A DNA stretch of 64,000 nucleotides from Ulota crispa (lineage: Eukaryota > Streptophyta > Bryopsida > Orthotrichales > Orthotrichaceae): contig OY987248.1 in the NCBI GenBank assembly GCA_963920765.1, positions 6,544,539-6,608,538 on the forward strand. Direction: 5' to 3'. Position numbers and translations under genes: made by a program. The notes beneath the pieces are model-generated. The model saw only the letters and a program-made list of their open reading frames with translations, did no database searches and was not told the origin of the DNA. Positions 23,346 through 61,010 of this stretch are shown here, piece after piece (within the stretch, counting starts at the first letter, position 1; the number at the start of each line of letters is the position of its first letter).

Positions 23346-25345
23346 CTCTTAGGTCGGTGATTCTAGGAAATTTAGTGAAGAAGGCTAAACTGTTCTATTC
23401 AGAAGTTCTAAAGGAAGGATCAAATATGGGGCTCAAGGTTGTTAGTGTCTTAGTGGAGTATGCGGAGAAGATGGAGGTGACTTTGCAAGAGATGAAGACC
23501 ATCTTGCATGGCAGAGGCGCAAGACTAGAAACATGACAAGGATTAGGTTGAAAGAAAGAAACTAAGCTTGCTCAAAAAGACCCATCATTCTAGTCACCTA
23601 AACCTACAGTGCCAAAGATCATGATGAATTAAGGACCCCAAGGTCTACATGATTGCCCATCAAAATTGGTTTTGGAACCGGAGAAGGGTCTACGCTTGGA
23701 TTCCAAACCAAGAGTCATACCCGGACGACACCGGAGGACAAGGATGCAGCAAAGGTGCCAAGCCCGGTGAAGCAAAAGGTAACAACCAAACGAGCATGGG
23801 AGTTGACTTCTCCTTTCAAGATCAACCTCGATGAGGATTCATCTTCATCATCTTCAAAGACTGAGGATACTTTGGGGGATTTGCAAGACAAGTCTGGAGA
23901 CACAGGTTCAAAAGCGGTGCCCTATAGCACGGAAAATGGAAGAAGCAAGATTAGACCTTTTGGAAAAAGAAGTCAAAGCATGGTACCCGCGCTACAGTCA
24001 GCAAAAGGCAACCGGCACAAAAGAAAGCGGCAAAGTCAACGGGTACATCTTTGAAGCAAAAGAAAGATACCTAGCCGCATAGTAATTGTAAGAGTAGGGG
24101 TAGTTATATATGTAAAATAAAGTTTGCTTACTCAAGAAGTTGAGAGATAGTTGCTTCCTATTATGATGAGCTGGGACATGCGGATTCAGATCTTTTGGAT
24201 CTGAGATCTACTTTTGGGAGAACTTTGCTATGTGGCGGTATGTCCACATTTTTTGGATTAGGGAATGAGAAGTGTCATTCTCTAATTGGTAGTTTTCCCT
24301 TCATGAAACTTTCAAGGGTTCCTCAATGATTAACCATGAGGGATTGACATGCAATTGACGCCGAGGGTGTTTTCATACTTTTGATTTTCTTTAATGTAAG
24401 CTGAGTTCTGGATTTCCACTACAGAGCGCTAAGTTCATTCCTTGGTGTGATGTTGGTATGCCAACAATGCTAGAACCATTGCTTAGTGCAGGTAGCTGGA
24501 TTTTGTTAAGTGAGGGAGAGAAGGAATAACCCCTTGGATTCTGGAATTCATTGAGGTGGTTGAAAAACTGTGCATACTAGAAGATAGTTTGTGCAAGTCT
24601 ATGCTTGGGAGACTTTTGTGAGGAATAACCATCCATAAATTGGGTTTGATCTGGGTAGAGAGCCGGATGTACGCTAGTTGATGGGTTGATGAGGTTCCAC
24701 TACAACCATGAGTGATTGTGAGCAAAAGGGATAGGGGTCTTCTAGTTATTTGGTTACCAATCATAGCAAAGGAAATTAGGTCTGAATAAGTTTGTTGTTG
24801 TAGTAAGTTGTTGTAGTAAGTTGGAACAGTAGGGGTTTCTTATGTGACCTGCTGGTCCGGACTAGTTTCCAAGTCGGTTGTGAGGGAATACTTACCTCTT
24901 ATTGTCTTGTTGTGTTGTTTTCCTTGTTGTTTTGTTTAGTGGTTATTTAGTCACTTTAAATTCTAGAAGGGTAGGATTTCACGCATCCTTCCTTAATATC
25001 AACTTGCGGAACCCTCTAATATGGAGGCTAAACTTTTGAAACATATAATTAGTGTCAAAATCAAATCTGGAAGAGGTTCAAAGTTTTAGGACACTCCTTG
25101 GTTTCCGGGTAGTTATAGTAGGTTGTTATTTGAATACAGAACTGGAGGTTAGATAATGTACAAGTAAAGAACTTCTAGTTAGTTATATTGTGTGTGTTTG
25201 TTTGTAAGTAGTAGATTTGGATTTCCATATCTTGTTCCAGTCATCTTTTAGGAAGTACAAACTAAATCCCTATGGAACAATAAATGAGTTATTTTTTTGG
25301 TGTTTTAAGCTACTTTTTACACCAATAGGAGGATTAGTACTTTCT
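23346..25345 (+). repeat. Nuclear repeat, copy A (truncated at the plastid junction)
   Basis: The region can be matched block by block, in inverted orientation, to 27745-29660. Examples: GGTATGCCAACAATGCTAGA (24459) against its complement near 28655; ATTTTTTGGATTAGGGAATG (24250) against 28855; CTTCTAGAAGGG-type sequence near 24965 against 28145; and encoded FGTGEGSTLGFQTKSH against FGTKKRPTLGLQTKSH. Copy A begins exactly where plastid DNA ends and lacks the part matching 29660-30900. It contains fragments of a protein gene (KMEVTLQEMKTIL near 23475, a basic tail near 24000) with stops. I do not recognise the family. Confidence 0.75.
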
Positions 25346-26480
25346 TGTGCTACAATACTTAGGTAGAGTACGAGTACAATTAGAGTAGTCATTCAAAGAA
25401 GATGGTCGCTCATCAAGTACTTTGGGCTCATGCAAGCTTGGTCTAATTTCAATCAACTTGCCATTGGAAAACTTCCTCATTCCCCTAGGTATGAATCCAT
25501 TTTGGGGGTGGGGAACAATCATATTAGGCTTTTGACCCTTTACAGCTGACCAGTTGGGTGAGAGTTCACTAGAGGTATACCGCTTTGGGTGTCACAACCC
25601 AAAAATGGAGGTAAACATGATTTTGTACTTGAAATTGCTCAAAGTTTAAAGGGTTTTTTAGATTCTTTTTTGTTTTCCTATTAACTATATGAGTTAAGTA
25701 CATAGGATCATAATTAAAATTGTTAAAAAAGCACTTTAAGTTCTTAAGTTTGTACATTTGTAGACCACTATCAAAATGTCACAGTACTAGAAAAGTATTA
25801 GAAAATTATGGAAAAGTACAAAAATTTTGGACTTAGAGAAATCATACTCTTCCACCTTTACTTCACAAGAGACATCCATGCCTCTTCTATCTAAATCTAA
25901 ATTCAAATTTCTAATAACATCACAAATTTTTCAAATTTCTACAAAAATAACGTTGATTTTTTGCTCATTTTTTGGCAAGGGATGATTTTTGTGAAAAATT
26001 ATGTTTTCCTTAATTGTATTTAAGATTCCAAATGATTGCAACTAGGTCTAGAATGGCTCAAAAACAAATTTCCAAAAAAAAAATTTCACAAAAGTTATTC
26101 AATATTTTAGTGTTTTTGATGTGTTTTTGTGCACTAAATATAGTAAAAATTGTGCCAAAAGTGGTACACCTCTAGTATACTTTCACCTAGTCTATTTGTT
26201 TTTGAAGTTTGAGCTCTGCCCATATGCCCCTACAAAGAAAAAATGCAGCTTTGTTTTGATGTACTAATGGAGCATTGTACAAGACTTGATGCACTTCAAT
26301 ACAACGCTCCTTAAATGCCTTGTCTTTGTAGAGCCTCAAATTTGCTATATTTCATAATGATGATAATTCTATTCTTTTGGAAAAAGTTTGAGATGTGGCA
26401 CCACTCAATGAAATTTGAGCAATCATCCAAGGTCCACAGATTCTAGACATCTTTGTAGCCTCAAAATGCAATCTTAGCAG
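25346..26480. other. AT-rich nuclear DNA, no gene seen
   Basis: No reading frame with protein-like composition, no tRNA and no clear terminal repeats. Several poly-A/T stretches. Confidence 0.5.
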
Positions 26481-26775
26481 GGTTTTGCAATACAAAAAGT
26501 TGTTTTTGGGGAAGTTCCCTCTTCATTTTGTAATTTTGTCTTTAGCCTGTTTCCCATGTGCTGCTGCTGCTGCCATTTTCAAAATTGTTAGTAGCAAAAA
26601 GTTATGCATAGTGGTAAGTGTGGATGTGACAGCTGTAGATCCCACCAATTCCAGCCAACTAGCTAATGAAAAGTGGAGGAGAAATGAGCCTGAGGCGGGG
26701 CACAGATCCTTCTTATATATGGATAGGGCAGCAGCAGATTTAGGGGCGCAAGCCATCTGCACAGAAATCAACATT

Positions 26776-27133
26776 AGACACGGACGCATTTGGCTAAGGG
26801 GTGGTTGTTGATCATGGGGTGCGGACAGAACAAAAGAGGCGCGGACGTTTGAGATAAGGCTTGGACGCTTGTGGATGGAGCATGAATGCTTGCCATCCAG
26901 GCGCAAACGTTTGTGGTCAAGGGTCACAAGCAACTCTACTTAAGGCATGCACAACCGCGGTTGGGGCGCAAACGCTTGTGGTTAAGGCGCGCACGGCCAC
27001 AGTTGAGGTGCATACGGCCGTGGTTGGAGAGCACACAGCCGCAATTGGGGCGCATACAACTGTGGTTGGAGTGTGCACGGCCCTAGTTGAGGCGCGTATG
27101 CTTGTGGTTGGGGTGTGGGCAATTGGGACTAAG
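26776..27133 (+). repeat. 21-bp minisatellite encoding a heptapeptide repeat
   Basis: Successive units such as GTGCATACGGCCGTGGTTGGA (one base over twenty omitted from its copies) recur with a 21-bp period; eight units tile 26945-27112 and more diverged ones extend left to about 26776. Frame 26861-27160 is open for 99 codons and reads heptads like TAVVGEH/TAAIGAH. The region is richer in G+C and CpG than its surroundings. Open frame probably follows from the period being a multiple of three; no evidence of a gene. Confidence 0.7.
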
Positions 27134-27744
27134 GTAGGAGGTTTGTGCATGGACCATTGAAGGGAAAGTGCGCTTTTGTAGACAAACTATGGCTGCTTGG
27201 CATAATGAAGATATTTTGGGCAGAAAGCCAAAGAAGAGACAGTTATGTGGAATTATAAATTGAATTTTTTGGAGTTAGAATGAATTCATTACAAATTTTC
27301 AAAGCAAAATGTGCATAGGTAGCTATTCTTGATCATAGGTGGTAGCCTTCATGATGCAAAGGTGGCTTGTAAATAAAGCGCATGAGTCCTAAAAGCAGCC
27401 ACTACAAAGCTAAAAATGCTCCAATAAGGCTTGTAAAGCATGCAATCATCCATTCCATATTCCAATGCTCAAATCATGATTTGAGAACATGTTTCAATTA
27501 TTTTAGTACAACATTTATCTATATTTTATTGAAAGACAAATCTAAACACAATGATGACCAATAAACACACACAAAAGTGGCTGATTTTACTCTCGTAAGT
27601 TCCTAAATCGATGCATAACTAGTACAATTTTTGAACCTAAAAAAATGTGACCCATTGAAGTACCTCTTTGCAATGTTTTAGTCACCTTACAATCCTACAT
27701 GGTTGGTTCCAAATTCTTGGTCTAAATTAGAGCCTCCTACCTTG

Positions 27745-30700
27745 CTTTTGTAGCACAAAATAGCACTAATCCTCATGTTGGTGTTAAAACTAACTAAAAG
27801 CACCAAATAGATGACTAGTGTATTGTTCCACAAAGATTTAGGTTGCAGTTCCTAAAAAGATGACCAGAATAGGATATGAAAATCTACTTCAACTCTCATA
27901 CACACACACATTGGATGAAGCACCAGAAGTTCTACACTTTAGTTATTTCTAACTCCCAATCCTATTTCTTGACAGTAATAAAATCTTGTACTTATCCGCC
28001 AACCAAATAAGATTGTTCCAAAACTTTGTACTTCTTTTGGTTTAGGTCATGATTCTGTAATTGAAGTAATTAATTTTAGAAGTTTAGCCTCTATATCAAA
28101 GGGGTCTGCTATTTGGAGTTAAGGAATGATGCATTAAATTTTACCCTTCTAGGAACTAAAGTGATTGAAGTACCACTTAAAGAAGATAGCAAAGAAAACA
28201 AATATAACAAGATGCAAGTATTCCCTCATAGCAGATCCAAAAACTAGTCTAGACTAGCAAGTCACACAGGAAATCCCTACCATCCCAAGTGACTACAACA
28301 ACAGTCCTATCCGGTCCTACTTTCCTTTGCTAAGATTGGTAATTGCCTAACCAGATAACTAGATGACTCCTATCCCGTTGCTCACCACCACTGCTAGTTG
28401 TAGTGGAACCTCATCAATCCGTCAACTAGCATACATTTGACTTTCTACCCGGATAGAACCCAATTTAAGGGTGGTTTTTCCCCACAAAAGTATCTAGATC
28501 ATGAACCCAAACAAAAGCTACCCTCTAGTACACACAGTTTTTCAACCACCTTAATGATGCTCCAAAAACTATTTTAGACAGAAATTAGGGGTCACTCTCT
28601 CTTTCTCACTCCACAAAACCTAGCTATTTGCACTAAGCAATGGTTCTAGCATTGTTGGCATACCAACATAAGACCAAGTGACAAACTCAATGCTCTGAAG
28701 TGGAATTTTGAAACTTTATTTGAATGAAAGAAAACAAAAGCATGAAAACACTTGGGGCATAAATTTAATTGCTGCTTCTAAATAACTAATCCCCCAACAA
28801 ACTGTAAAAGTTTTTAAAAGGAATAAACTACAAACCAAGAAATGACACATTGCATTCCCTAATCCAAAATACGCGGATCTTTCACCATGTAGCAAATTCT
28901 ACCAAAAGTGGATCTCAAATTCAAAAAATTCGTATTTGGGTGTCCAAATTCATCATAAAAAGAAGCAATTAGTAAGTAACTTCCTAAGTCATTTATTTAT
29001 TTATTTTTCTCTTAATACCTACTTCTGTTCCTAAATTTAGTATGGCCTTTGCTAGGAGTTTGAGTTTGCCCTTTTCTTTTTCTGCGCAAGAGAGACAAAA
29101 TTTACGGATGCGTGTCTTTTTATTCTTCTTTTGACTCAACTAAGCTGCCTTTGTTCTCTGACATTGTTAGAGACTTGACTTCCTTAGATTCAATCTTGAT
29201 AGGCAAAGTTGACTCCCTTGCTCTTTTCTTGGTTGTCTGCCGTTTCACCAAACTTACTTCCTTTGGAGCACCCTAGTCCTCTTCTACTATCTGGGAATGA
29301 CTTTTGGTCTGCAATCCAAGCGTAGGCCTTTTTTTGGTTCCAAAGTCAATCCGACTAATCAATTGTAAAGACAATGAAAACTTCATGACGCACTTGTCCT
29401 TCAGTCCTACTGATGCAAGCAAAGAGAAGGTTATAACTCTCTTGGAAGAAGTGGCTTCCTTCCTTCGACTAGATCCTTTCTTCATTTCCGATTCTAGACC
29501 ACCTTCTTGCATGATTGTCCTCATCTCCAATATATTTGTCTCCATCTTCCCCCCATAATCCACCAAGAACTTAACAAACTTTGGTTCCAATTGCAACCCT
29601 TTTTTCTAAACTCCGGCGTTGAACAACTTGGCTTTGTACACTACATCTTCCAGATTCCTAAGGAAGTTTTGGATTGGGATGAGAGCTTCTTTAGACTCAA
29701 GTGAAAACCTTGCTAACTCATACTCCTATTTTAGTTGGGCCCAAAAAACATTCACTTGGCCAGACAAATCCTATCTCCACTCTTCTAACTCCTTCACATT
29801 TTTATTGTGGAGAAGACTCTCCACTCCCTTGTATATGTCAGATGACTTGGACATGCCCATCAACTCACATACTTTCCAAGTAGTCTCTCTCTCACCAAAA
29901 ACTTGATTCCTAATTCCATTTAGTTCATCTATGACTTTAGTGAGGGGATCATTTTATTGTTTAATTGCCCAAATTAAGTCTTTCATTTTGGTCTTCTCAG
30001 CTAATTCCTTACTTTTCCCTTGGACTACTTTCTCCTTTTCCGAATCCTCAGACACCTCTCTTGACCTTCCTTGCATAGTTTCTGGTTTTGATTCTAGAGT
30101 AATATCATATTATAGCATTACCTCCACTACCCTATACGCTGTCCTCTCCGTATTCTTCATCAAATCTAGAGAGTTATAGAGGTGGAAAGAAAAGGATTAA
30201 GACCAAAAAGTTTGGTTTTCTTGATTGCTGAACACATTCCCATAACTAAATTCTAGACTAGCACCCCCCTATTTACCTTCCTATCTCCAAATAGTGCTCC
30301 AAAAATAGTATTTGCCAAAGTGACCATCACCCGGGTTGGCCTTTCTGGAGTCAAGATCAAAACTAAAAGTTCTAACACTCTTCTATACCTTTGATTTGCA
30401 CAATCCGTGACAGCATAGCCGTCTTTGGGATTCACAAAGTTGGAGAATTTACCATTGCAGAACTTGTTTGTCCAAGAAGCCATTCCTTCTTCCTTTGATG
30501 GAAAGTCGTACACCATACACCGTTCTTTGGCTGACCACTTGGATGGCTGCGCTTCCATAGTCAGCTTGCACTTGCATAACTGATCTGCCTTCAGTTCCCG
30601 CACCATCTCCTTGTTTCTCAAGTTCTAAAGGGCTTGAAAGAAGCAATGGCAACCAATTTGTTGCAAGTCCTCCTCCAAAAGCTCCCTTGACTTTTTATCC

Positions 30701-35226: not shown

Positions 35227-35948
35227 ATTGCCAGGGCACTGTGTGGGTGCAGATCACAAGCTCCAGAACAACTTCAAGAGTCCCACCTGCACGATTCAAA
35301 AGTCAAGGGAAAGGAAGGAAGGGCGTGAGCAGATGCACAAGTGAGCTGAATCACCTCGACTATGAGAAGCAACTCTCAACCCAATAACACGACATCAAAT
35401 CCTATGCGCAAAGATGAAACACACTGTCAAACCCTGACAAAGTAACAGCAACAATCATCGAATCCTAAGTGAGAGTATTCTTCTCAGGGCGAAACATTCC
35501 AGAGTCCCTACTACCATAATTCTAGAGAAAATTGACGAAGCACCTCAATCGCTACCGTGACACTAATATGAACCAGAGGGGCTTGGAGATGAACTAGAGG
35601 ATGGAGGAAGAGAGAGGAAGGGGGAGAACACAGGGATAAGCATGAAGACAAATTCAACTTGAAAGCCATTTTATTTTATTCGTTATCTTTTACGCATACA
35701 ATACCGTTTACCGTATGCGTCTCGGTTTAGTTGTTGACTGAGTACTGTTCACAAAGTAGAGCAGCCCATTCGTCGCTAGGGTTTGATGCAAAACCTTGTC
35801 AATTCCGAATTGTGCCCCTCTTTGATCGTTCCATGTAAACCCTAAACCATCGTAGAGCTGCCCAAACTCTGCGGCTGGACTGTGTATTTTTGAGTTATTG
35901 AAGACCCTCTTGCTCGCACTAGGTTGATTGGTGATTCAGTTCGGTTAG
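35227..35948. promoter_or_regulatory. Shared upstream region of two divergent genes
   Basis: 722 bp between opposite start codons, so it should hold both promoters and 5' leaders. An interrupted palindrome TACGCATAC ... GTATGCGT lies at about 35693-35720 next to an AT-rich stretch (TTATTTTATT). Telo-box-like AAACCCTA words occur on both strands near 35840. Regulatory role inferred from position. Confidence 0.45.
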
Positions 35949-43905: not shown

Positions 43906-44754
43906 AAACCAAAGGCGTCACTGACAAATTTAGGGATATTTTGATGGAAAAGCAAATGGTTGTAGGTGATTGGGTGACAAGTTTGGGTGATGAAGTGATG
44001 GTTGTGGATGACTGGCATGACAGTTTTGAGTACTCACCTTAATATGTAGGAACCAACAAACCTTGTTTTTGGTATCTCTTATACACGGTTCCTACAATTT
44101 CAGTGATTTCAGACTTTGAGAAAACTTTGTAAACAAATGCTTAGATTTGGAACCTTGAAAATTGATGCCAATATTTTTGGTATCCACTTCCTAACTTACA
44201 ATATTTTTTTCAAAGTTAGTCAATTGTTTTACCTACTCCAAAACCCTTATTTCCATGCTTATGGGTGTGCCTAAACTCTTACACCCATTGGGAGGTCTCT
44301 CAATGTTTTTCCCAAAAGATGCTAAACTACTATAGCCCTAAATTCTTTGAATGGTCTAAACGCAGTTAAATACAACAATGAAATTGTTGTTGCTATGCAT
44401 TCAATTTTTGTGTCATTGCTGAGTGTCTAGTCCCAATTTTATACCAAAAGACACTAATTTCTTGCATGAGAATTGGTAACTCCTAAACCCGGTTATGAAC
44501 CCCTAAACCCAAAATGCACTAAATCTATGTACTTGATCCGAGGCTTTGAGAGCTCGCACCCTAAACCACTCAAGACCCATAGGATAGAGGGAACAACTGA
44601 CGCCTAGCCACATCCTTGAGAGTGTCGCACCATAATTGTGCTCTCAAACTTCGCACAGTCTCAATTGTAACCTCAAGGGCAAATTATAAGAAATGGACCA
44701 AATAATTGGCCGTATTCCAAAAATGGTCATGACAATCACGAGATATACTAAAAA

Positions 44755-45138: not shown

Positions 45139-46832
45139 TAGTCGCTCCGGAAAAAAACCTCACCACATATTAAAAGTGAGCCTTGCAACTAAGGTGACCA
45201 GGATGGCCTACTTTTCAAAGTATGGCTAGTTGTCAAGCCCATTTTTGACCCTCAGGTCTTTGTAAACCCCCTCAAATGCGCGCAGTGAGCCATAGGTCTA
45301 ATGCCGGTCCACCGTTGGCGCGCAGCAAATGACGACTTAGTGTTTGATTTGCTCAAGACTAACCCTAAACATCTTAGAGATGCAAAAATCATAGGATGAA
45401 TTTACGGTGCAGCTGCTGCGCAAGTTCAACTTAACATCTGGTGTTCAAAGAGGGATGTCCACCCTTGAATCCAATGCCCGGGAAAACCGCCGTTGTGTTC
45501 ACTGTATGGACAAGAGTTGCCTGATTTTAACAATGTGAGGAAATTTCCTTTTGCGGAGCTTCAGAATATGCCCTAAACTTTGGCAGCCCGCTATAATAAA
45601 CCAAATACAACAGGAAATTGAAAGAATGGAAGGGCAGGTACAAACAAATACACCAAATTTTTTATATGAGCCGATCAAATCTCAATTGTTCCCTATTGCC
45701 CATAAATTGACCATGAATCCACATATCCCAAGCGAGTATTTTTCAACCCCTCAGAATGATTTGGCTAAGGAGGATTGACTCTCAACATTTTTGCACCATT
45801 ATGCATCAAGGATGGAGCACTTCGAGCTCAGATTTATGGCAGATGTCACAAACTAACACTAAACAGCAAATACTTAGGGTTTGCGGTCATCACAAGTCGT
45901 ATAGGTCATAGTAGAAAAGACAAGACCTTGAAATGTAATAAGATCCTCAACCCCCAAAATTAAAACCGCACCCAAATAGTACGGACCAAAACTCCCCAAG
46001 ATCAAAAATATGATAATAGCTTGGACCTCAATAGACCCTTTCAACATCTTTCAGTGGACCCCTAAACCCTAAACCACAAGACAAAACAAGATGACAAGGA
46101 TCACAAATGAGACCCTTACCAAGAGACGAAGGGTTGTATTTTCAGCCAGGCCTCCTTGAAAGTCTGTGAGCAATCCAAGTACCTCAACCTCTGCACAATC
46201 AAAACCAAAATTTAGCGACTAAACAAACTGGTAGGTTGCGGCCCCTTACGCACATTTTGATATTGTTTATCAGCCAAACCCTTGACACATGCACAACTTC
46301 AAAAGCGCCCTAAAATGTTGGACTCTCTCCGGCAAGTACCGCACTCTCAGCATGATTGTGTCCATCATGTACAGCACTACAGCCCCTAAATTTAAGGAAC
46401 GCTAATAGGGCCGCAAAGATTCACTCTCAAATCGAGGGCCACGGCTCATACCTTCTCCAAAGGCTAAACCCTGATCCCATTTTTCTCCTTTGATCCAAAC
46501 CTCGGCCTTGCAATATAGCGTATAGTCGTCGCAGGATGTGAAGAGCTCGCTCAAACCACCATTGCTCCACCGCCATACACCCGCAGCGCACACTCTTTGC
46601 CATTGCCAACACAAATCTTCCGCCTTGTTAAACCGCTCTCGCCATGAAAGTTTCCGCCACTCTTGCTTCAACGAAGAACAATCCAAAATTAAATTACAAA
46701 CCTTGTTCTACATCGAAATTTGATCCATGTCATGTTAGTAGTCAGAAAGGGGAGTAAGAAATCATTTTTGTTGTCAGAATTTGAGCCAAAAGTCATATGT
46801 TAGATGTCATGAGGGCCAAAAAATCTGTACAA
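45139..46832. other. Nuclear DNA with weak gene-like traces
   Basis: A tryptophan-rich 94-codon frame on the minus strand at 46402-46686 (LSWRERFNKAEDLCWQWQRV) lies in a more GC-rich patch and ends near a possible donor GTATGAG, so it could be an exon, but I found no partner exons. CCCTAAACCCTAAA occurs at about 46059. Confidence 0.3.
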
Positions 46833-46980
46833 AGAACGTACCTGCATTCCTTTGTAGTTGCAAAATTTTGACTTGCATTTACAAAGGAAAGGTCACACCG
46901 GTGTGACCTCTTTGTAAGAAGTGTACCCAATGTGACCGCAAATGCACTGCATTCTCTCGTCGGTGAGCTATAGGCATCTC
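46833..46980. repeat. Solitary copy of the 217-bp tandem unit
   Basis: Contains ATTTACAAAGGAAAGGTCAC, CACCGGTGTGACC and AAATGCACTGCATTC in the same order as the array at 40826-41460, 5.4 kb away and diverged. Confidence 0.75.
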
Positions 46981-47199
46981 CTTCATAGGTTGTAATCTCG
47001 TTTATTGGTTTTTGTCTTGTTAAGAGGTTCTTTGTCTTTAAGGAAAAGGTTTTATCCTAAACCCTAAATTGAACCTCGTTATGAGGTTTTGGTCGCGCTA
47101 GGAGGGTTAAACCTTGTTATGTGGTTTTTTACCTCATTAGAAGGATAGCTCAAAACATATAAAAAGGAGGGTGACACTATAATCTTCTTCTCTTTTCAT

Positions 47200-48060
47200 T
47201 ACTTGTTTAGAGTTCTAGCCTTCTCCCTCTATTATGATGGCCTCTTCTCTTTGCTTTTCACTTCTTAGCTTAGAGTCCTTGCTTTTTGTCCCCATTTTGT
47301 AGTTCCTCCTTCTTTGCATTTTCATCTTTAGATTTGAGATTTTCCATTCTTTCATCTCCATGATCTCTCCTAGTTCTTCCTTCCTTGCATTTCCATTTCC
47401 ATCTTTAAGATCTAAACCCTTGCTTTTTGTTTTTCTCCATGATCTAAGCCCTAGTTCCTCCTTTGCATTTTCATCTTCAGATTTGAGATCTTGCTTTCTT
47501 TCATCTCCATGATCTCTCCTAGTTCCTCCTTCCTTGCATTTCCATTTTCATCTTTGAGATCTATCTCCCTTTTTTCCATCTCCATGATCTAAACCTAGTT
47601 CCTCCTTCCTTGCTCTCATTTCTAGCTTTGAGATCTTGTTTTTTTTTTCATCTCCATTATCTCTCCTAGTTCCTCCTTCCTTGCGTTTTCATTTCTAGGT
47701 TTGAGATCTATCTCCCTTTTTTCCATCTCCATGATCTAAACCCTAGTTCTTCCTTCCTTGCTCTCTCATTTCCAACTTTGAGATCTTGTTTTTTTTTCAT
47801 CTCCATGATCTCTCCTAGTCCCTCCTTCCTTGCATTTTTCATTTTCAGCTTTGAGATCTAAACCCTTGCTTTCTATTATCCCCATGATCTAAACCCTAGT
47901 TCCTCCTTCCTTGCATTTTCACTTTTAGCTTTGAGATCTTGCTTTTTCTTCCATCTCCAATATCTCTTGTAGTCCCTCCTTCCTTGCTTTTCAGTTTCAA
48001 ATTAGAATTCTTGTTTTTTTTAAAAATCTCCATTCCTTTGTTATCTTTTCCTAGCTCTTC
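47200..48060. repeat. Pyrimidine-rich tandem array with a two-unit higher order
   Basis: The word CCATGATCT or close variants recurs at about 47361, 47440, 47510, 47585, 47657, 47732, 47806, 47885 and 47959, a 70-79-bp period. Units alternate strictly between a CTCCTAGT form and an AAACCCTAGT form, giving a dimer of 147-153 bp. Each unit includes TCCTCCTTCCTTGCAT and TTTGAGATCT. It directly precedes the long frame at 48257. Confidence 0.82.
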
Positions 48061-48610
48061 GGTTTTAGGTTAGAGCTCTTGCTTTTTATCCCCATTCTGT
48101 TATCTCCTTTACCTTGCTTTTTATTTGCAAATTTTAGAGTCCTTCTTTTCTATTTCTATTCTATTGGTTTCTTTTCCTTGCATTGTTTCTACAATTTTAG
48201 GGTTCTAGCTTTTGGTTTCCATCTTTTGTTATTTTTTTTGCTTTTTACTTGTAGTTATGGTTTGTCCTACACATATAGACATTGATGGCCCAGATCCCTT
48301 GCACCCTTTAGATACCATTAGTCTCTCAAATATAGATTATAGTGCATGTGTCGTTTGTGGTCCGGATGTTGTTCATGGCCCACTTGTGGAGCATATCTCG
48401 GATGTCATTACTCTATCAAATTTGCATCATGGTGCAGGCCCTGTTTGTGGCCCAGATTCCATACATAGTTCGTTTTTTGTCCACATGGAGGACGTTGCCC
48501 ACACCGCAGATTCTGTTCATACGGCGGAGATTTTTCATAGGTTGATTTGTACTGGTAGTCTAGACACCACCCATATGGCAAACCTTATCTGTTCAGATAG
48601 TAGTTACACT

Positions 48611-48814
48611 GGAGACACTGTTCATCTCTCAGATCCCATCTGTTTGGAGCGTAGCCAAAGTAGTAACACCATTCATCTCTCAGATTCCATCCACTCGGAG
48701 CGTAGCCTCAATGGAGACACCATTCATCTCTCCGATTCCATCCATTCAGGGCATAGCCTTAGTGGAGACAACGTTCATATTGCGGACCCTATCCATTTAG
48801 AGCGTAGCCCTTCA
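48611..48814 (+). repeat. Four 51-bp units encoding a 17-residue repeat
   Basis: Units start at 48611, 48662, 48713 and 48764. Translation is close to GDTIHLSDSIHSERSLN each time. They lie inside the long frame beginning at 48257 and keep its phase. Confidence 0.88.
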
Positions 48815-50383
48815 CCAGATGTTTTGATTTGAGAGGACCATGGACCTTGTAAGTTGCGTTGCCTATTTAGGCCGACACCGGTTGACATTGCATCGAATGT
48901 TCAGGTGCCCCGATTTCCTCCCTTTATTAGACCCTTCACCGATGTGGATGAGTAACCTAATGCCAACAATCCCAAGTATTTAGACTTGGACGCTGCTTGC
49001 TTCATGATGCTCACCTTAGACTTGCCAAGTTTATTTGGCATTATGACCCGTCCAGCTAATTGCAAAGTGAAGGTGACGGATCTAGATGAGTTTGATGACT
49101 GGCTACACGTTATTTCAAATCCAATAGTTGTGAAGGTCTATGCTGGTAGTGATAGCATTTAGAGAGATGATTTGAAGGATTGAGCTGTGAGATTTTTGAG
49201 AGCTAAGTTTGGCGTGGTGTTGACTTGTAACTCTAGTAGCTTGATGCTATCTAGAAATCAAGTCAACGTTCCGATTTGGGCCATGTCTCGCACAATTCAT
49301 CACCTTAGAGCGCATATCTATTGAGTTCAATTTTTTGGTATGAAATGGGAAATCCCATTTGCTGAGATCAAGATAGACCATTTCATAGAGCGTTATCATA
49401 CAAAGATGGGTTAGTTTGTTCCTCTTGGAATGAACATATTTGACTACGGTGTAGTGTTAGATACAAATGGCATCCATTTGTATAGATTTAATGATGCTCA
49501 ACACGTTGCTCGATGATATAGGGACGGTCAGGTTCACGACATGTGTGGCCTGATTAGATCCGGTTTGGTAGACTTCAAGCCAATTATACACAACCGTGTA
49601 GCAAAGGTGAAGATTTATTCGGAGCTATGCCATGAGATTTTGTTTGTGATACAGAAACAGACTCTAAATGATATGCCAGCTACCATGCTTACTATACGTA
49701 CCAGATTGGGCCATCTACGGAGTTTGTTGGCACTTTGGGAGGCTATGCCAGAGGATAGGTGCAAAGCTCAACTGTCAGGTGTTTGAGTAGAGGTTACTGT
49801 TCAAACAAAGAAAGTTGTTGACGGTCGACAACTTTCTTGTGAACTGAATCTCCTGTGCATAGAGGGCATAGAGAATGCATTAGAAGGTGCGTTTCACACA
49901 GCCACCCTTCCCGTTGACCGGTTTATGAGGACTTTCAGACAAAGATACCAGGAGTTTTTACGGTTGGTTCTTGGTATGAACAAATATGCACCAACAGTTT
50001 GTATTTGAAACACCTTGACATTTGCTCGTTCGGCAATGGGATGGAGCGGCAAGAACATGGCACGCCAATTAGCAAATGCACGGGTGTGGAAGCTTGCAGA
50101 GGCACGTCAGCACGCTCTTAGAGATGCACCAAAGTTTTTGTATGATGGACACAAGCAGGATGACGGACAAACTCGTGACCTCATTGTTGATTTTCCCAAC
50201 CATGCACGATGGTTTGTCCACAGCAGAGTGCACCTTTAGACTATTGATGGACTCATGTTGAAGAAAACAAACTGACGAGGATATTGGAAGAAGGAAGGAG
50301 TGTGTGTCAACCGTGTTGGTGCAGTGCGCTATTCTACAGGACAGTTTGGAGCAGATTGGAGAGATCATGTACAATTTATTCTA

Positions 50384-50500
50384 GAGGTTGTAGTTCCAGA
50401 GGTTGTAGTTCCAAAGGATGTAGTTCCATAGGGTGTAGATCCAGAGGGTGTAGATCCAGAGGTTCTAGGCTCAGAGATTGTAGCCCCAGTGATACATATT
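50384..50500 (+). repeat. 15- to 18-bp repeats encoding VVVPE/GVDPE
   Basis: GTTGTAGTTCCAGAG and variants recur about seven times near the end of the long frame. The unit is a multiple of three and the frame is kept. Confidence 0.75.
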
Positions 50501-50943
50501 CCGCAAGTAGTGGAATTGTCTTCATCATCAGACGATATGTAGTTGATTACATGTGACACTCTGGTACACTTAGTATATTGTATAGGATTACCCCTAGTTT
50601 TTACTATTATACGTTGCACTTGTATTTGGTGCTTTTCTCTCCTTATATTCATATTCGTGCCCATGTAAGACCTCTTACAACCCTCACCCCCAATTTTCTC
50701 AACCCTAAACCCCCTAAAAAACCCCTAAACTTTGTGACTGATTACTTGTATGTGGACCCTAAACCCTAAACCTTGAACCCATGTAACCCTTGAAATCCCA
50801 AAATATTACTTGCATACATCCATTCCCATTTGAAATAATAAGAACAAGACCAAATCATCATGGATTAATCTACAAAAACTGTCCAATTTGACATCATTTT
50901 TGTCAATTTGGACACATTTAGTCAATTTGGACGTATCAATTAC

Positions 50944-56666: not shown

Positions 56667-57394
56667 TTAACCCCTAAAGGCCCAAGGAGTGTTTTTTGGC
56701 AACATAGCAATTTTGGGCAGCTTCCTACAAATGGAATTTTCACTTTTTTTTTTGAAACTTTCACACGTGATGTGCCCAAAGAGTAGCTTTAAGGTCCCAC
56801 AATTTTCATAACTTTTGACCACATGAATCAAAACTTATTGCATGATATGTTGTTTTTTTTGTTTGGCAAGCCGTCCGAGCAGGATAAAAAAACTTCTTTA
56901 AAAATTACATTTTTTGGAATTGGTTCTTTAGATTTATATATATGTGAGAATTTTGAATCATTCAATTTTGATTTGTGAAATGAAAATTATGGGAAGTTTT
57001 GGTTTGTGGGTTTGTGTGGTTTTAGAAAGACTCTATACCTACCCGCAAACTAAAATTTCTCATAACTTTCATCTCTCAAATCATAACTGAATGATTCAAA
57101 ATTTTCACATATATATAAATCTAAAGAACCAATTCCAAAAAAATTCCAAAAAATGTAAATTTTAAAGAAGTTTTTTTATCTGCTCGGACTGCCCGCCAAA
57201 CAAAAAAAACAACATATCATGCAATAGCTTTTGATTCATGTTGTCAAAGGTTATGAAAATTGTGGGACCTTAAACCTACTCTCCGGGCACATCATGTATG
57301 AAAATTTCAAAAAAAAAGTGAAAATCCCATTTATAGGGAGCTGCTCAAATTTGCTATGTTGCCAAAAAGCACTGCTTGGGCCTTTAGGGGTTAA
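56667..57394. mobile_element. TTAA-flanked element 4, an almost complete palindrome
   Basis: 728 bp with identical outer TTAACCCCTAAAGGCCCAAG on both ends. The two halves (56667 to about 57020 and about 57045 to 57394) pair nearly base for base, for example TTGCATGATATGTTG, AAAAAAACTTCTTTAAAA and TTGGTTCTTTAGATTTATAT on both arms. The loop is about 25 bp. It is the youngest-looking of the four, because its termini are identical, and it could form a very long hairpin RNA if transcribed. Confidence 0.85.
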
Positions 57395-59809: not shown

Positions 59810-61010
59810 TCATGATAGGAGAAAGGAATTCTGGTGGTGCCCTTGTTGACGTCTCACAATTACAAAAAAAAATAGGAAGGAAGAGGCAAACCTATCCGCC
59901 GCATAGAGTTTTTGTTGATTATGACAGCATGGGATCTCAAGAGGAGACCCAATTGGTGGAGGTTGTTGAGAGCAAGCAACAGAGACATGAAATTTGCTCC
60001 AAAGATAGAGTTGATGAATGGACGGGCCCAAATGACAAAGGTAAAGAAAAGTTCAAGAAATGACAACACTTGCACATAAACATGGCAAGGGTGGCAATGC
60101 AGAGGAGGCGCATACATGTATACAAAAGAAGAAATTGCCAGAGATTGCAAATCCTTCTAGGTATGGACTTCAACCAAATATTCAAATATTCATACCAATG
60201 TAAAACTTGTTATATTTACCTTATGACATATCCTAGCATGTGTGTTTGTAGATATATTACTGAAAGTCAGAGAACATGTCCATTTTCTATAGGGGAAATT
60301 ACAACAATATTTAGAAAGCACTAATTTTTTTATTGTCATGCCTATAATGTCCATTATGATGAGCATACCAAAATGGTGGCTTCCTATAATATCTCCGGAC
60401 AATGACAATGGTGTGCAAAGGTACATTCACAACATTAGCATAAATGGTAGGCTTGTCTTGCATTTTTCTTGTGTGCGGTTGTCTGAAATGAATCACAACA
60501 TGTGCATTAACAAAAACAACTTCCCTAGATTGTACAATAGTCCACCAGACAATCCTACATGCAAGACAAATGAAGACAAAGAGGACAAAGAAGACATAGT
60601 GGAGGAAGAAGACAAAGAGGAGGAAGAAGACAAAGAGGAGGAAGAAGACAAAGAGGAGGAAGAAGACAAAGATGATGAAGAAGACAAAGGTGACAAAGAA
60701 GAGGAAGATGGCAAATACAAGCCAGATGAAGATAGCACAGATGTCGAGGCCATGGTAGTGGAGCATCTCCACCACACTAGAAAGTCTTGGAGGTCTAAGG
60801 CAGTTGCAGTGCCTACAAGATGTTACTTTGTACGTTTGAAAAGCAAAGCAAGAGAAAGGAAAACCTTGTAGGTTAACAAAGAGGGGAAGCCAATTGGATC
60901 AATGGTGACGTGTTTTGAGAGTGATGTCAACCGCATGGCAAAAGGTTTAGATCCCTTGTACAATTGGAGTAAACAACCTCAAAAAAACAAATTTTGATTT
61001 TTCAATCGAC
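59810..61010 (+). pseudogene. Decayed coding region with an acidic repeat
   Basis: Frame 59812-60063 (SQLQKKIGRKRQTYPPHRVF VDYDS...) is followed by 60338-60871, where a 15-bp repeat (GAAGACAAAGAGGAG) encodes EEDKEEEEDKEEEEDK. After an in-frame TAG at 60869 the same frame reads VNKEGKPIGSMVTCFESDVN RMAKGLDPLYNW to about 60996. Likely one old gene; perhaps a transposon-encoded protein, but I recognise no domain. Confidence 0.45.

Follow-up and report, generated by a model that had tools for sequence, protein, structure and literature searches.

A stop-rich reading frame as a probable interstitial copy of a gene from telomere-linked units

The decayed protein-coding frame at positions 48257..50542 (+ strand) of the window, by which we mean the whole 64,000-nucleotide stretch analysed (G000:C7:6544539-6608538, within a 274.8-Mb assembly), is likely to be a no longer active copy, at an interstitial site, of a gene from plant telomere-linked repeat units, with spread and methylation-driven decay along the following lines. 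The units would multiply at chromosome ends by telomere-linked recombination and telomere healing, and possibly by reverse transcription primed by the C-rich 3' end of the unit RNA annealing to the G-rich overhang. Copies stranded at interstitial sites, such as the window copy, would become cytosine-methylated, and their CGN arginine and CAG glutamine codons would then turn into stops faster than frameshifts accumulate.

The frame and its protein family

The frame comprises 762 codons and is interrupted by 12 internal stops (7 TGA, 4 TAG and 1 TAA) before a terminal TAG, without a frameshift. The original prediction of a 2.3-kb frame with this set of twelve stops was confirmed by codon count, by the sister frames and by shuffling. 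The remaining two forward frames of the same stretch contain 53 and 54 stops, and dinucleotide shuffles gave a mean of 42 stops per frame, none of 500 yielding a frame with 13 or fewer. Since the twelve internal stops stand against these values, the frame is a gene remnant and not a product of chance.

Same-genome searches returned 21 DNA matches and 59 protein matches, the window's own included. One relative, C10:15783599-15785296(-), located 1.5 kb from the telomeric contig end of C10, is open from its ATG over 566 codons, and is the kind of fully open copy that it had been proposed to look for. The remaining matched stretches, many of them fragmentary, contain none to nine stops each. The conserved core of the window frame (48854..50539, +) is homologous to the open relative. 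Near its C-terminus there is a 15-bp in-frame repeat (50379..50483, +), whose copy number varies between relatives, and a C-terminal tail, QVVELSSSSDDM (50504..50539, +), which is like the tail in 7 of 16 aligned members, those reaching this end. The tail of the family reads VVELSSSSDDM or VVIELSSSSESM and bears what we take to be a resemblance to a SUMO-interacting motif.

The N-terminal 191 codons (48257..48829, +) are stop-free, have no match in any other copy and include 51-bp (17-codon) tandem repeats at 48610-48778 (+). In the same-genome searches the window frame was unmatched at the DNA level upstream of query base 640 and at the protein level upstream of residue 198, and no relative was found for the leader and the first 191 codons of the window copy. 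The stretch 48200-48899 has 207 consecutive codons without a stop, a length attained by 1 of 1000 shuffles; the coding status of the N-terminal part is nevertheless uncertain, because tandem repeats of 3n bases can carry an open frame along.

We regard the frame as an old member of a plant gene family not described so far. That the protein belongs to no recognised family held true within Pfam, NCBIfam, PHROGs and PDB, where no match beyond chance was obtained for the family protein. We set aside as chance some weak Pfam matches, each confined to a single one of the 16 members (best E 0.0043), as well as an NCBIfam hit of the window frame (E 0.16) and a multicystatin hit in PDB (E 0.27). No relative was found in the prokaryote and viral contigs scanned or in phage records, and a term search of the open-access literature, which was not exhaustive, found no published description of such a plant family. 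Between the subfamilies dN is 0.40 and dS is saturated, which indicates that the protein was constrained. The predicted structure of the open protein had a mean pLDDT of 38.3, with blocks above 70 only between residues ~450 and 520, and a Foldseek search with it returned nothing at E<=0.001; because the prediction is unreliable, no fold is claimed.

Other parts of the window have a different character. Positions 1 to ~23,500 look plastid by their tRNAs, group II introns and composition, and the remainder is nuclear-like. The plastid genes, together with telomeres of the TTTAGGG type, point to a land plant, perhaps a bryophyte judging by gene order and genome size. A 1.9-kb test piece of 1-23500 shows 100% identity with contigs C73 and C157, and the plastid DNA appears either to have been transferred very recently or to reflect a join made in assembly; shorter plastid pieces are numerous elsewhere in the genome. 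Adjoining the plastid insert, 24213-28907 contains inverted arms of 83-142 bp, 71-78% complementary and spaced 3.7-4.5 kb apart. An 18-bp tandem repeat, GAAGACAAAGAGGAGGAA, at 60554-60735 is accompanied by overlapping open frames of 154 and 177 amino acids on opposite strands.

Telomere-linked units and their spread

The original prediction had suggested an undescribed repeat family. This was supported, the family being part of telomere-linked units. At the C10 end, where the unit is best preserved, it consists in order of telomeric repeats, a leader of ~1.5 kb, the 566-codon ORF, ~0.4 kb of 3' sequence and the terminus. The 5' end of its ORF points toward the telomere, and its conserved terminus, CCATGTAACCCTAAA, merges into CCCTAAA repeats. 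Telomeres of the TTTAGGG type are present in the genome; the C10 contig end has only about three such repeats. The same unit is found at the C10 and C4 ends. At C4 the telomeric tract exceeds 2 kb, with ~0.4 kb of non-telomeric sequence beyond it toward the contig end, and inward of the tract there is a 0.63-kb 3' fragment and then a leader-truncated unit still holding the ORF region, each of them ending near CCATGTA and CCCTAAA-like repeats. At the C4 and C11 ends the units are arranged head-to-tail and lack portions of their 5', telomere-facing side. At the right end of C11 (L058, G000:C11:6210000-6213500) there are at least 35 internally deleted units with a period of 2072 bp over ~82 kb (best 40 of 1178 candidates scored), their 5' side toward the telomere, and the deleted form is present at the left end of C11 too.

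To describe the distribution, an 815-bp unit from C1 was used as a query, which matched mostly by its last ~190 bp. It identified 31 loci (63 of 70 match rows, telomeric-repeat rows and one overlap being left out), and 24 of these are no more than 500 kb from an end, a zone that makes up 0.041 of the genome. The 5' side faced the telomere at 18 of the 24 loci and at 7 of the 10 within 50 kb. Protein matches (40 of 59 rows, without those from repeat arrays and those that added pieces to loci already counted) gave 35 loci, 17 of them within 500 kb of an end and 18, including the window copy, farther away; here the 5' side was toward the telomere in 11 of the 17, and in 3 of the 7 within 50 kb. 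The orientation of the units toward the telomere is only partly regular. The exact 3' motif had 32 matches in the genome versus none for the reversed control; by our count, 17 of the 32 were no farther than 500 kb from an end and another 8 were more than 1.2 Mb from any end. One of the motif loci, L059, contained no frame over 96 codons.

The strand of the telomeric stretches was more uniform: 54 of 55, over 17 non-palindromic loci of which several are mutual duplicates, lie on the gene's own, C-rich strand. The count was made by hand and leaves aside the C4 telomere, three palindromic loci and any locus lacking such a stretch. The agreement holds also in copies that are inverted relative to the chromosome end. 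The window copy has two short CCCTAAA-type stretches on the gene's own strand downstream of the frame (50698-50712 and 50755-50774, +), and next to them CCATGTAACCC (50779..50789, +), which we read as a decayed version of the conserved 3' terminal motif of the family; the window copy is absent from the exact matches to this motif. Upstream of the frame there are C-strand telomeric stretches at 46058-46076 and 47054-47069 (+), within the part 46058..47069, and a 149-bp CT-rich tandem array (47300..47999, +). Further C-strand stretches are at 35835-35850 and 44501-44514.

Several known systems resemble these units in part. Drosophila HeT-A has a single non-RT ORF, long non-coding parts, a 5' end toward the chromosome end and truncated head-to-tail arrays, and it replaces telomerase repeats. 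The same ORF type, non-coding length, orientation and truncated arrays are seen here, a likeness of layout; unlike with HeT-A, the genome has TTTAGGG telomeres, and their repeat forms the end of the unit. Yeast Y' elements are subtelomeric ORF units bounded by telomeric repeats and spread by recombination, and their ORFs are helicases. Our unit is likewise a subtelomeric ORF unit bounded by telomeric repeats, as are Y' elements and the fungal telomere-linked helicase genes (TLHs) named in excerpts of PMC12857005, but its protein has no helicase match.

The fungal MoTeR and FoTeR elements share with the units described here telomeric repeats at the unit ends, 5' truncations and decayed copies. 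As in FoTeR (PMC12857005, in excerpt), the 3' end runs into C-strand telomeric repeats, and as in MoTeR (PMC7367193, in excerpt), units form head-to-tail arrays with telomeric tracts between them and with the middle replaced or lost. According to the same excerpts, MoTeR1 and FoTeR encode a reverse transcriptase and MoTeR2 does not (PMC7367193, PMC12857005); unlike in MoTeR1 and FoTeR, neither an RT nor any other known domain could be detected in the sole long ORF of our best-preserved unit. The decay also differs from that of the fungal elements, being of the CG/CHG type and not RIP, in a plant-like host. C-rich telomeric repeats at the 3' end are common to our unit and to the Terminons/Athena Penelope-like elements and Selaginella PLEs, for which pairing with G-rich overhangs has been proposed and which carry an RT and, adjacent to the C-rich repeat, a hammerhead motif (PMC12477314, in excerpt). 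In contrast to these elements, no RT was seen in our unit, and a search for hammerhead ribozymes found none at E<=2 in the five loci L026, L020, L021, L028 and L058.

Some units were copied as whole subtelomeric blocks, and blocks of up to ~9.8 kb are duplicated at 91-94% identity. A stretch of ~670 bp lies downstream of the gene in C10:394k, C1:41.21M, C10:15.75M, C10:446k, C6:123k, C10:29k, C9:18.83M and C2:36.9M (L009:7800-8476 in the subtelomeric unit, where it marks the block duplications), and it occurs at many interior places as well, with 81-83% identity. It is best read as an inserted dispersed repeat copied along. Its common presence suggests that the group from C10:394k to C2:36.9M arose by block duplication; an origin of these copies by independent, 5'-truncated insertions was accordingly rejected.

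The duplicated blocks and the dispersed stretch common to that group would be expected of a purely DNA-based, Y'-like subtelomeric unit, moved by recombination between telomeric repeats and by erosion and healing, with no reverse transcription at all. Erosion alone would also produce telomere-side truncation; truncation with de novo telomere addition has been documented for MoTeR (PMC7367193, in excerpt), and telomere-side truncation with healing explains the C4 arrangement. This account has a little less than an even chance of being right. It leaves unexplained the common terminal motif that merges into telomeric repeats across unit types, though a recombination hot spot could produce it. The common terminus would follow from overhang-primed reverse transcription, but in the units read no reverse transcriptase came to light; the 566-aa ORF had no Pfam match, and the weak single-member matches among 16 members included no RT.

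An ordinary dispersed transposon, persisting near telomeres only through weak selection there, might be suspected from the 18 of 35 protein-match loci, the window copy among them, that are more than 500 kb from any end. We regard this as unlikely, since the 3' terminus contains telomeric repeat, the units abut telomeric tracts, and the telomeric stretches keep to the gene's strand almost throughout.

Mutation spectrum of the decayed copies

The original prediction had pointed out that every stop could be reached by C-to-T or G-to-A. This is not evidence, because TGA, TAG and TAA can each be reached in this way from some sense codon and the statement is true of any stop codon; relatives are therefore needed for the test. 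Changes were counted as private to the window copy at sites where C10:394k and C1:41.21M agree. There were 73 of them at 1276 sites; 63 were transitions, with 52 C>T/G>A versus 11 A>G/T>C. The private C>T/G>A rates were 0.217 at CG (13/60), 0.162 at CHG (6/37) and 0.038 at CHH (12/318), so that CG and CHG sites changed about four to six times as often as CHH sites. An excess of CG and CHG over CHH is the plant cytosine-methylation pattern. The proposed comparison of aligned paralogues thus gave mostly transitions, with C>T/G>A rates highest at CG and CHG, and the CG/CHG bias of the private changes supports the methylation-driven option of the prediction.

The bias extends beyond the gene: four duplicated non-coding flanks had 15/100 changes at CG, 24/146 at CHG and 80/3711 at CHH. 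Because these flanks lie outside the gene and show the same bias, the decay acts on the region as a whole and does not single out the ORF. An excess of C>T/G>A with raised CG and CHG rates was also found in six decayed copies (C1:41.21M, C10:446k, C10:29k, the C4 end, C11:730k and C6:18.64M). The least decayed copies, C10:394k (22 versus 31) and the open copy (12 versus 19), have no net excess of C>T/G>A; their CG and CHG rates are nonetheless above CHH.

Over the 487 codons common with C10:394k the window copy has 9 stops, 1 of which is a stop in C10:394k too. Of the 8 facing sense codons there, 5 are opposite CGN arginine codons, 3 are two-base differences and 1 involves a transversion; 3 of the 8 are also stops in C1:41.21M. 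A simulation with the context rates gave 4.9 new stops (95% range 1-9), reaching the observed 8 or more in 10% of runs, and one with a flat rate gave 3.2 (0-7), with 8 or more in 1.4% of runs. Some stops may have another origin. One faces a tyrosine codon in all three members of the open subfamily that cover the position, and it probably needed a transversion, although the subfamily is distant and the assignment is not certain. Two more may be transversions: one has Glu opposite in one relative and Gln in another, and one lies within the 15-bp repeat, where the alignment offers no counterpart and neighbouring repeat units of the window carry Glu. Most stops nevertheless look like ordinary methylation-driven C-to-T decay.

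For frameshifts, 11 relatives were aligned with the window copy and indels were counted from the homology boundary of each copy, by which the edge gaps of truncated copies were removed. There was no frameshift relative to the window copy in 6 of the 11 and one in each of the other 5, so the lack of a frameshift in the window copy is not exceptional. Between the window copy and its nearest relative, C10:394k, there is one 15-bp in-frame gap and no frameshift over 1443 aligned bases; from the open relative it differs at 653 of 1560 bases, with a 3-bp gap, a 30-bp gap and again no frameshift. The claim that the frame has no indel therefore stands for frameshifts and fails for in-frame gaps, those of 15, 30 and 45 bp toward the C-terminus setting the window copy apart from its relatives. 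In the non-coding duplicated flanks 47 indels with a length other than 3n were found per 1159 substitutions (six comparisons, mutually non-independent). This rate predicts ~3 frameshifts per 73 changes, and with none seen (P = 0.05) the divergence of the window copy was probably not wholly neutral, part of it having accrued while the frame was still constrained.

RIP prefers C>T at CpA, whereas the window copy shows a preference for CG and CHG with CHH low, CpA not being counted as such. RIP-like hypermutation targeted at repeats is accordingly very unlikely in this plant-like genome, even though a repeated sequence with a strong C>T/G>A bias is what it would leave and a telomeric family decayed by RIP has been described in Fusarium (PMC12857005, in excerpt). 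In the form aimed at the gene it is not supported, adjacent non-coding DNA showing equal bias; that DNA is itself duplicated, and its rates would also fit targeting of all duplicated DNA.

Recoding, by which TGA, TAG and TAA would be decoded as amino acids throughout the family, and RNA editing that restores the frame as in plant organelles are not needed, because the open 566-codon relative exists. The low frameshift content and several stops common to some relatives could be held to favour recoding, but the kinds and positions of the stops vary among copies and are not conserved at the same sites in the family, one site is arginine, glutamine or stop depending on the copy, a frameshift is present in 5 of 11 aligned relatives and one relative is open without any recoding, which makes this option of the prediction hardly credible. 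Members of both subfamilies carry TGA at one position, which fits recurrent hits at a CpG. Editing is just as improbable: stops opposite arginine and glutamine codons are sites that U-to-C editing could restore and plastid DNA lies within the window, but the gene is in a nuclear contig, stop-restoring editing of the plant type belongs, to our knowledge, to organelles, an open genomic copy exists, and non-coding flanks have decayed in the same manner.

Inverted duplications and a possible control of terminal units

Four interior loci contain inverted duplications of overlapping parts of the middle of the ORF: L016:3844-5281, L017:3822-5180, L019:3154-3962 and L023:3235-3940. Their arms are ~86-95%, 95-97%, 98-99% and 67-70% complementary, respectively, and three of the four loci were folded and gave very stable hairpins. 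No terminal repeats or target-site duplications were seen in their 40-bp flanks. The internal order of L019 differs, and the arms of L016 and L017 are 83-84% alike; this differing arrangement suggests at least two origins, perhaps four. From their structure the four duplications could be siRNA sources. The argument is weakened by a dispersed fold-back family, which shows that palindromes are not rare here; its member in the window is a 0.73-kb palindrome at 56667-57394, with at least 74 matches in the genome (best 40 of 4075 candidates scored).

The ORF product may serve the unit's own maintenance at the ends, as a Gag-like or end-binding protein. We tentatively consider, as a possibility of rather low probability, a telomere-capping element made of ~3.6-kb one-protein units with a tail of the SUMO-interacting type, which would add itself beside telomerase by means of its telomere-complementary 3' terminus and be restrained by the hairpins. 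If this is true, siRNAs from the hairpins would direct CG and CHG methylation, giving rise to stop-rich, frameshift-poor copies.

Stops without indels should not be read as recoding; the pattern observed here looks like ordinary methylation decay. Telomere-associated elements are described as rare in plants in the excerpted part of a 2025 review, which also states that no Drosophila-like telomeric retrotransposons have been found in plants so far (PMC12477314). An open ORF 1.5 kb from a telomeric end, units at several ends and copies in graded states of decay are direct test material, and they open to experiment how plant chromosomes that have telomerase gain terminal elements and keep them in check.
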